A DNA stretch of 54,856 bases. Origin: Chthonomonadales bacterium (GTDB taxonomy: Bacteria > Armatimonadota > Chthonomonadetes > Chthonomonadales > CAJBBX01). The stretch lies in contig JADLGO010000021.1 in assembly GCA_020849275.1 (NCBI GenBank), positions 136,324 through 191,179 on the forward strand, read 5' to 3'. The first letter of the stretch is position 1, and the number at the start of each line of letters is the position of its first letter. Below the pieces are notes generated by a model that saw nothing but the letters and a program-made list of their open reading frames with translations, had not been told where the DNA came from and ran no database searches. Positions 45,622-47,674 of this stretch are shown in pieces. The position numbers were made by a program, and so were the translations under genes.

Positions 45622-45660
45622 CCGCATGTTCGTTAGCCAGCGTTGACGAAACACATGCGG
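45622..45660 (+). promoter_or_regulatory. Long imperfect palindrome overlapping the marR promoter
   Basis: CCGCATGT (45622-45629) and ACATGCGG (45653-45660) are perfect complements 23 bases apart. Between them TTCGT (45629-45633) and ACGAA (45646-45650) form an inner inverted repeat. The -35 box of the next promoter (45643-45648) lies within it. A repressor bound here would block the promoter; MarR proteins are often autoregulated this way. It could alternatively be a terminator for the TPR gene, but no T-run follows. Confidence 0.5.
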
Positions 45661-45671
45661 TGTGGTAGGAT
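45643..45671 (+). promoter_or_regulatory. Predicted promoter of the marR-desulfurase operon
   Basis: TTGACG (45643-45648), 17 bases, TAGGAT (45666-45671). The leader to the ATG at 45875 is about 197 bases and contains no convincing ORF; I see no further element in it. With the palindrome above this accounts for the 315-base gap. Confidence 0.7.
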
Positions 45672-45874
45672 CGAGTTGGACGGCCTCGCTGCCGTGCCTG
45701 CCCCCGACGCGGGTTCTTCCTCGGGAGTTACGGCGGGCCGACGGTTCGAGCGGGGCCGTTGCGCGCGCGTCACGCCGCCGCTGAGACCGGTCCGTCTCTT
45801 GTCTGGCGGGGGACCTGCACGGGGCGGCGACACCATCGAACGGGCCGAGCTCACGCGCGGGCTGGAGGGGCGAT

Positions 45875-46414
45875 ATGTCTGAGGCGTCGTCCGCGGAGGC
45901 CATGCGGGCCTCCGACCTATTCGTGCAGATCATGTACAAGACGCTGAGCCAGCACCTGATCGCGGAGCTGACCGACGAGAAGGTTAGCCTGCCGCAGGTA
46001 CACGCGATGCGCTACGTCTGGCTCCATCAGAACGTGCTGATGGGCGATCTGGCCGCCGGCCTGCGGATCAGCTACCCGTCGGCCACCAACATGGTCAAGC
46101 GGCTCGAACGCCAGGGCCTGGTGGAGCGGATGGTGAACCCGGCGGATCGCCGTGAGGTGGAGGTCCGCTTAACCGTGCGCGGCCGCGATCTGACCGAGCT
46201 CATGGAGAGCGAACGCATCTCGCGCCTCCGCACGGTGCTGGACGCCATGCCCGACGAGGACCGCGCCGCCCTCCTTCGCGGCCTCTACCGCTTCGTGCAG
46301 GTGGCCGTGGGCGAGGATGAGGACATCGCCTCCGACGTCTGCCTGCGCTGCGGGGCAAGCGCTGCCCCAGGTTGTCCCATCGCCGAGTCCCATGTGCTCC
46401 ACGTCTGCCGGTAG
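45875..46414 (+). CDS. MarR-family regulator with C-terminal four-cysteine motif
   Basis: 179 residues. Residues 15-140 form a MarR winged helix: the recognition region is LMGDLAAGLRISYPSATNMVKRLERQ and the wing is NPADRREVEVRLTVRG. A terminal extension (residues 150-179) carries four cysteines, C156-X2-C159-X7-C167-X10-C178, near the very end. Classical MarR proteins lack this. The pattern could hold zinc or an Fe-S cluster, or act as thiol switch. The cysteine desulfurase starts 12 bases later, which links the sensor to sulfur or Fe-S metabolism by context. Probable autoregulation through the palindrome at 45622-45660. Confidence 0.87.
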   Translation: MSEASSAEAMRASDLFVQIMYKTLSQHLIAELTDEKVSLPQVHAMRYVWLHQNVLMGDLAAGLRISYPSATNMVKRLERQGLVERMVNPADRREVEVRLTVRGRDLTELMESERISRLRTVLDAMPDEDRAALLRGLYRFVQVAVGEDEDIASDVCLRCGASAAPGCPIAESHVLHVCR

Positions 46415-46426
46415 GACGGTCGATCC

Positions 46427-47599
46427 GTGGTCGACTCCCTGAGGTTGCCGGTCTACCTGGACCATGCGGCCACCACGCCGGTCGCGCCGGCCGTGCTTGC
46501 GGCGATGCAACCCTTCTTCTCCGACGTGTTCGCCAACCCCGCCGCGGCGCATGCCGCCGGCCTCGAGGCCCGCGAGGCCGTCGAAACGAGCCGCGAGACG
46601 CTTGCGCGGCTGATTGGAGCCGACCCCGAGGAGATCACGTTCACCTCTGGAGGGACGGAATCGGACAACCTGGCGCTGAAGGGGGTGGCGCGCGCGGTGC
46701 TCGGGGAGCGCCGGCACGTCCTGGTCTCGGCCATCGAGCACCACGCCGTGTTGGACGCGGCGCGAGCGCTGAGTGCGGAGGGCTTCGACGTGGAGACGCT
46801 GCCCGTTACCGCCGAGGGCATCGTGGAACCAGAGGCCGTGGCCGACCGTATATCTGCGCGAACGGCCTTGGTCTCGGTGATGCATGCGAACAACGAGGTG
46901 GGAACGGTGGAGCCGATCAGCGAGATCGGCCGCATATGCCGCGAGGCGGGTGTCCCCTTTCACGTGGATGCCGTGCAGACCTTCGGGCGGGCCCCGCTGG
47001 ACGTGAGGGCAAGCTTCGTCGATCTTGCCAGCGTCTCGGGGCACAAGCTCTACGGCCCCAAGGGCATAGGGGCTCTCTACGTCCGCCGTGGGGTGCGCCT
47101 CGTCCCGTGTCAGGATGGCGGCGAGCAGGAGCGGGGACGGCGGGCGGGGACGCTTAACGTCCCCGGAATCGTGGGACTGGCCGTCGCGGCGGAGGCCGCA
47201 TGTGCGGAGCGCGAAGCTGAGTCGGCGCGGCTGGCAACGCTCCGTGACCGGCTGATGGCGGCGCTCCTGGCCAACGTGCCGGGATGCCGGATCAGCGGGT
47301 CGCGCCGCCAGAGGCTACCGAACAACGTGCACGTGTGCATCGAGGGTGTCGAAGGGGAGCCGGTGCTGCTGGCACTGGACGCCGCCGGCGTCTTCGCGTC
47401 CGCCGGCTCGGCCTGTTCGGCGGGGTCGACAGAGCCCTCGCACGTGCTGATCGCGATGGGCCTTGGCCGCAACCTGGCTCGCGGAGCGCTGCGGCTGACT
47501 CTGGGTAAGGATACCGACGCGGCGGCGGTCGAGTACGCGGCGGAAGCGGTGGCCCACGCGGTGACGGAGGTCCGCGGCATGGCCGCGACGGGGTCGTGA
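46427..47599 (+). CDS. Cysteine desulfurase (NifS/IscS family)
   Basis: PLP enzyme that removes sulfur from cysteine for Fe-S clusters, tRNA thiolation or other acceptors. 390 residues, GTG start. YLDHAATTP at the N-terminus, TSGGTESDNLALKG, the PLP lysine K207 in VSGHKLYGPKG, and the catalytic cysteine C330 in SAGSACSAGSTEPSHVL, on a loop of the group I (NifS/IscS) type. No scaffold gene (iscU/nifU/sufU) or tRNA thiolase (mnmA) follows; the next gene is the sigma factor. Cotranscribed with the four-cysteine MarR protein. I leave the symbol blank because iscS and nifS cannot be told apart here. Confidence 0.94.
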   Translation: MVDSLRLPVYLDHAATTPVAPAVLAAMQPFFSDVFANPAAAHAAGLEAREAVETSRETLARLIGADPEEITFTSGGTESDNLALKGVARAVLGERRHVLVSAIEHHAVLDAARALSAEGFDVETLPVTAEGIVEPEAVADRISARTALVSVMHANNEVGTVEPISEIGRICREAGVPFHVDAVQTFGRAPLDVRASFVDLASVSGHKLYGPKGIGALYVRRGVRLVPCQDGGEQERGRRAGTLNVPGIVGLAVAAEAACAEREAESARLATLRDRLMAALLANVPGCRISGSRRQRLPNNVHVCIEGVEGEPVLLALDAAGVFASAGSACSAGSTEPSHVLIAMGLGRNLARGALRLTLGKDTDAAAVEYAAEAVAHAVTEVRGMAATGS

Positions 47600-47638: not shown

Positions 47639-47667
47639 TTGACAAAGCGGCACACCCACCTTATAAT
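47639..47667 (+). promoter_or_regulatory. Fully consensus promoter for the sigma factor gene
   Basis: TTGACA (47639-47644), 17-base spacer, TATAAT (47662-47667): a perfect match to the housekeeping sigma consensus, 40 bases after the desulfurase stop. Predicted start about 47674. Confidence 0.9.
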
Positions 47668-47674
47668 GGTTCGA

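Follow-up and report, generated by a model that had tools for sequence, protein, structure and literature searches.

Known regulators of Fe–S assembly

Most of the regulators known to be dedicated to Fe–S cluster assembly are either Rrf2 proteins or SufR. IscR and SufR are presented as the primary regulators of this process in a 2021 review, which makes no mention of MarR proteins and describes the control of suf in most Gram-positive bacteria lacking SufR as unknown (PMC8593673). The cluster ligands of such sensors vary, being Cys3His in IscR (PMC8593673), Cys3Asp in NsrR (PMC5411485) and Cys3X in ArnR (PMC12343034). The MarR-family protein that we describe here has much in common with IscR and its relative RisR, since these too are small winged-helix proteins with three invariant cysteines and a variable fourth ligand, and likewise stand at the head of Fe–S assembly operons with probable autoregulation. 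The likeness is one of function and not of membership: IscR and RisR are Rrf2 proteins, whereas our protein has no match to the Rrf2 domain (PF02082) up to an E-value of 0.01 and carries its cysteines in a C-terminal tail, as CX2CX7C.

SufR, which is found in cyanobacteria and some actinobacteria, resembles the proposed MarR regulator in that it autorepresses a suf operon, carries its cluster site near the C terminus and has a palindrome as its operator (PMC8593673), but it belongs to a DeoR-type family and its operator is CAAC-N6-GTTG. Its cysteines follow the spacing C-X12-C-X13-C-X14-C (PMC8593673), against C-X2-C-X7-C-X10-C in the protein under study. ArnR of Corynebacterium, a [4Fe-4S] protein, comes close in another way, having a winged helix-turn-helix reminiscent of MarR and ArsR, three conserved C-terminal cysteines and an uncertain fourth ligand; however, those cysteines (179, 193 and 223) lie in a separate sensory domain at a spacing that our protein does not match, and its targets are nitrate reductase and hmp, not Fe–S assembly (PMC12343034). 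In the open-access literature searched we found no report of a MarR regulator of Fe–S assembly or of a MarR protein with an Fe–S cluster. The protein probably works like IscR and SufR while standing outside their families, in a clade that is apparently undescribed in that literature, and we think it likely that the members of this clade are sensors of Fe–S status, which autorepress Fe–S assembly operons by means of a labile cluster in the tail.

The marR–nifS pair and its promoter

The window, by which we mean the whole stretch of 54,856 nucleotides that was analysed, encodes on its forward strand (45875..46414) a MarR-family winged-helix regulator of 179 residues (Pfam PF01047, E 3.5e-13, 49.7 bits against a cut-off of 24.6), and an RBS-like GGAGGGG can be read ahead of the gene at 45864-45870. 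The only cysteines of this protein are those of its C-terminal tail, C156-X2-C159-X7-C167-X10-C178, encoded on the same strand at 46340..46411 (codons 46340-46342, 46349-46351, 46373-46375 and 46406-46408). After a spacing of 12 nt from the marR stop codon, the GTG start of a second forward-strand gene (46427..47599) opens a NifS/IscS-type cysteine desulfurase of 390 residues, with its loop cysteine, Cys330, at 47414-47416. A preliminary description of this DNA had noted the regulator with its four spaced cysteines and the desulfurase 12 bases behind it, and both hold good. The desulfurase matches the class-V aminotransferase family (Aminotran_5, PF00266) with an E-value of 1.4e-82 and 278 bits and exceeds the cut-off of the NCBIfam ‘IscS subfamily’ model (NF002806; 310.7 versus 304 bits), and it falls short of the NifS equivalog model TIGR03402 (485.1 bits against a cut-off of 530.75).

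The sequence upstream of marR contains a predicted sigma-70-type promoter for the pair (45643..45671, forward strand), made up of TTGACG (45643-45648), a 17-nt spacer and TAGGAT (45666-45671), and several relatives have a comparable TTGACG...TAGCAT or TAGAAT 5' of their copy of the gene. The predicted leader, of about 195 nt, was also considered as the site of an RNA element, an idea that was dropped because Rfam had no match anywhere in the window. Beyond the 3' end of nifS there is also a near-consensus TTGACA...TATAAT promoter (47640-47670), which precedes a sigma-factor-like gene.

The body of the regulator is confidently predicted by AlphaFold 2 (AF2; pLDDT 89.8 and pTM 0.82 for the whole model) and has the MarR fold with its helical dimerisation part. 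Residues 1-153 of the model match known MarR folds with Z of about 16, including FabT (Z 16.1, rmsd 2.1 over 143 residues) and Rv1404 (Z 15.7), so that the predicted fold and DNA-binding domain are those of the MarR family at large (Rv1404, MepR, FabT, Rv0880 and others). These solved structures align only as far as about residue 153, and the cysteine tail lies outside every reported match; in the model it forms short helices, with a mean pLDDT of 81-85 over residues 151-170 and 62 at the end.

Conservation of the cysteine tail

How widely is this tail conserved? In an alignment of 23 relatives, C156, C159 and C167 are three of only ten invariant columns. When 291 Armatimonadota genomes were then searched with a profile, full-length matches extended down to an E-value of about 1e-34, with other MarR proteins beginning at about 1e-24. 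The loci that we call tailed are 96 taken from the upper group, chosen by profile and not by their neighbours. CX2CX7C is kept in 94 of these 96 loci, which span 25 families, while the full motif occurs in none of 39 control MarR paralogues. Even in a tree computed without the tail columns, the tailed proteins fall on one side of a branch from the 39 controls, with an SH-aLRT value of 92 that is below the 95 mark, and the deep forks of this tree are weak because few columns were available. A search of plasmids with a relative returned partial MarR matches only.

The cysteine pattern that the preliminary description had put forward for checking is thus conserved in its first three positions and not in its fourth, C178 being a lineage-specific residue found in a subset. 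A further cysteine some 10 residues on, as in the window, is present in 38 of the 96 loci; 41 instead have a histidine in mid-motif (C-X2-C-X3-H-X3-C), and 15 show other motif types beyond C-X2-C-X7-C, so the fourth ligand may be a terminal cysteine, the mid-motif histidine or nothing obvious. Two members of family f28 (in genomes G092 and G093) have no cysteine motif and yet still abut nifS, which means that regulation may persist without it; these two loci (L140 and L132, respectively) offer a natural experiment on the need for the tail.

Such a motif might also be a structural or sensory zinc site of CCHC or CCCC type, in which case the regulator would control Fe–S operons while responding to zinc or to a ligand in its pocket. 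CX2CG does resemble a zinc knuckle, the 41 histidine-containing members have a potential zinc binder, and zinc-sensing MarR proteins are known (AdcR; NCBIfam NF038251). Nevertheless, we regard this as unlikely, given that an unconserved fourth ligand (histidine, terminal cysteine or none clear) is unusual for a structural zinc site, that the AdcR/ZitR model NF038251 gives the window protein 18.8 bits against a cut-off of 175, and that the neighbours are Fe–S genes, with no recurring zinc gene among those inspected. What we favour and infer is a labile Fe–S cluster, whose loss would relieve repression, in keeping with the IscR pattern of three invariant cysteines and a changeable fourth ligand at the head of Fe–S assembly operons.

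Linkage to Fe–S assembly genes

The evidence that ties the tailed regulators to Fe–S metabolism is genomic. When about 3.5 kb on each side of every locus, where the contig allowed, was queried for NifS, IscU, Nfu, Mrp, SufB, SufC and others, an Fe–S assembly gene was found near 64 of the 96 tailed loci (19 of the 25 families) and near none of the 39 control loci, a difference with a Fisher p of 1.5e-14 if the relatedness of the loci is ignored. In all 64 linked loci the assembly gene is downstream on the same strand, and in 57 it is within 150 nt. The nearest such gene is NifS in 38, IscU in 16, Mrp in 6 and SufC in 4, and Pfam searches of representative neighbours confirmed NifU_N, NifU, NUBPL/FeS_assembly_P and SUFBD_core. 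The recurrent pairing with desulfurases, which the preliminary description had proposed as a check on its Fe–S-sensor interpretation, is therefore borne out, and together with the conserved cysteines it lends that interpretation support.

Of particular interest is that the type of partner switches several times along the tree, and that three genomes (G230, G231 and G232) each have two tailed MarR genes, one beside NifS and the other beside Mrp-IscU-Nfu. Since the partner differs between loci, even between copies in one genome, shared inheritance of a single neighbourhood does not explain the association, and a regulatory link between tailed MarR proteins and Fe–S assembly genes is strongly supported. 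The other 32 tailed loci have no Fe–S neighbour. They include family f29, in which 16 of 17 loci keep the tail, mostly with four cysteines, and have no assembly gene within about 3.5 kb, as well as the unlinked tailed genes of families f10, f11, f38, f42, f43 and f45; one unlinked locus, in G237, lies 150 nt from the end of its contig.

It could be argued that the cysteines form a thiol switch that senses persulfide, sulfide or oxidants, so that the module would govern the supply of sulfur and not Fe–S status. OhrR and other MarR proteins are well-known thiol switches, the partner seen most often is an enzyme that produces persulfide, the cysteine desulfurase, and a serine acetyltransferase gene (cysE) follows in some of the operons. 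Even so, we consider this improbable: in 26 loci IscU, Mrp or SufC, and not a desulfurase, is the assembly gene closest to marR, and three invariant cysteines arranged as CX2CX7C are more in keeping with a site for a metal or a cluster than with a switch of two cysteines. A neighbour other than a desulfurase is in most cases a different Fe–S assembly gene (IscU, Nfu, Mrp or SufC/SufB), and this favours Fe–S sensing over the sensing of zinc or of sulfur in general. That an ordinary MarR responding to some ligand should lie beside nifS by accident is scarcely credible, for although MarR genes are common and often adjoin unrelated genes, and a third of the tailed loci are without an Fe–S neighbour, the count of 64 in 96 against none in 39, the invariable downstream same-strand position and the exchange of partners within one pathway contradict chance neighbourhood already.

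The cysE genes were seen in family f8 (L086, L101, L102, L108 and L111), where they come after marR-iscU-nfu and place cysteine synthesis in the same operon.

Candidate operators

The preliminary description had pointed to a 39-base imperfect palindrome overlapping the promoter (45622..45660, with no strand assigned). The arms, CCGCATGT (45622-45629) and ACATGCGG (45653-45660), are indeed there and overlap the predicted promoter, but the repeat does not exceed chance: with dinucleotides shuffled, 79 of 200 versions of the 315 bases ahead of the gene, and 10 of 200 versions of the nearest 101, held inverted repeats of equal quality. Nowhere else in the genome does the palindrome recur with its outer arms exact, which is to be expected of any such 16 bases. 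Conservation upstream, which had also been suggested as a check, failed, because relatives lack the outer arms in front of this gene; as a conserved operator the palindrome is unsupported, and it is a weak candidate. What the closest relatives do share upstream of marR is TTAGC with a TTGACG element after it, and this may be the promoter alone.

Other candidates come from related lineages. When the 160 bases surrounding each gene start were examined, 32 of the 96 tailed genes proved to have a dyad, TAASNNNSTTA, where flanking DNA would lead one to expect it in 0.3%, and none of the 39 control MarR promoters had it. Almost every tailed gene (31 of 33) carries the dyad in ten families, f4, f8, f9, f17-f20, f36, f37 and f39, the 32nd match being in f11. 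In three genomes (G050, G036 and G217) KTAACYNRGTTAM is present as a single site, each time at the marR promoter, and in a fourth, G046, it has three sites genome-wide, two at the marR-suf promoter and the third upstream of mrp. When a doubled TAAG-N3-CTTA site was sought in ten genomes, the marR promoter matched with at most one mismatch in nine of them, and the remaining matches were repeats or had two mismatches, apart from a single one in a repeat-rich genome.

TAASNNNSTTA is absent from the window's own clade (families f1, f2, f3, f6 and f28-f31). Within that clade, genus g23 (f6) conserves another dyad at the promoter, AATCNGTTT-N8-RAACNGATT, which elsewhere has only a few sites with two mismatches. 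For the window's own lineage the operator is a presumed one. The position of sites at or just below the -10 box suggests repression.

Two further candidates were discarded. TTAGC-N3-GCTAA stands at many promoters of family f29, but it also occurs at 7-28 places per genome, and a reversed control pattern is at least as common, so it is not specific; the window's genome also has a GTAACTGGGTTAC site, which apparently falls within an open reading frame and is probably due to chance. Repetitive DNA was noticed as well. In f29 genomes (for example G182:C1:153151-153356), TTAGCCACGCTAA palindromes are grouped at spacings of about 77 and about 116 bases and are probably an interspersed repeat, and in G232 contigs C18, C45, C205 and C206 carry tandem repeats of an 8-base unit (TAAGACCC / TAAGAACC).

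A proposed mechanism

The invariant cysteines, the linkage to Fe–S genes, the operator-like dyads at related promoters and the predicted MarR fold are the observed basis of our proposal, in which a MarR dimer would bind a dyad over its own promoter and repress the operon that contains its own gene and the Fe–S assembly gene, nifS in the case of the window. The three tail cysteines and a variable fourth ligand would hold a labile Fe–S cluster. While clusters are ample, the holo-protein would repress; under a shortage of iron or sulfur, or when oxidants damage the cluster, repression would fall and the assembly genes would rise, much as with IscR, RisR and SufR. The binding of a cluster by the tail, a repressing and not an activating role, and the direction in which the protein switches are all put forward here as predictions.

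On balance, we believe that this MarR clade, in Armatimonadota and beyond, is a third route by which evolution has arrived at Fe–S-sensing control of cluster assembly, next to those of the Rrf2 and SufR types, and that it has been attached repeatedly to NifS, IscU-Nfu, Mrp and SufCB, and elsewhere to a ferredoxin-dependent Fe–S enzyme. If so, a very large family of bacterial regulators would have gained cluster sensing through a short tail of about 24 residues from its first cysteine. The variable fourth ligand (cysteine, histidine or neither) would then furnish a natural series on ligand choice versus cluster stability, and about a hundred genes of a poorly studied phylum would acquire testable functions.

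The host and other phyla

The genome of the window also has a SUF operon (G000:C59:66590-72415, locus L163), at whose head stands a distinct Rrf2 gene with the three-cysteine segment C-X7-C-X5-C. This arrangement is like that of IscR and RisR and is apart from the marR–nifS pair, and an Rrf2-SUF arrangement has been reported for Chthonomonas calidirosea (PMC9973013). As the SUF operon has its own Rrf2 gene, the tailed MarR would be the second Fe–S regulator of this cell, acting on nifS.

The range of tailed MarR proteins is wider than one phylum. Our sample of the rest of the domain consisted of about 106 genomes, together with one further phylum, that of G388, and an E-value of 1e-28 was reached in three of the roughly 106 genomes (G388, G295 and G374). 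The MarR of G374 has no cysteine tail; those of G388 and G295 end in C-X2-C-X7-C-X8-C and are followed by the genes of a 2-oxoacid:ferredoxin oxidoreductase, with its alpha and beta subunits and one that is ferredoxin-like. Such a MarR match is found in 5 of 7 genomes of G388's phylum. At four loci (L275, L276, L278 and L281) a tailed MarR gene lies directly 5' of the oxidoreductase genes, and in the promoter upstream of the tailed gene stand TAACGCAGTTA at L276 and TAACCGGGTTA at L278, both outside Armatimonadota.
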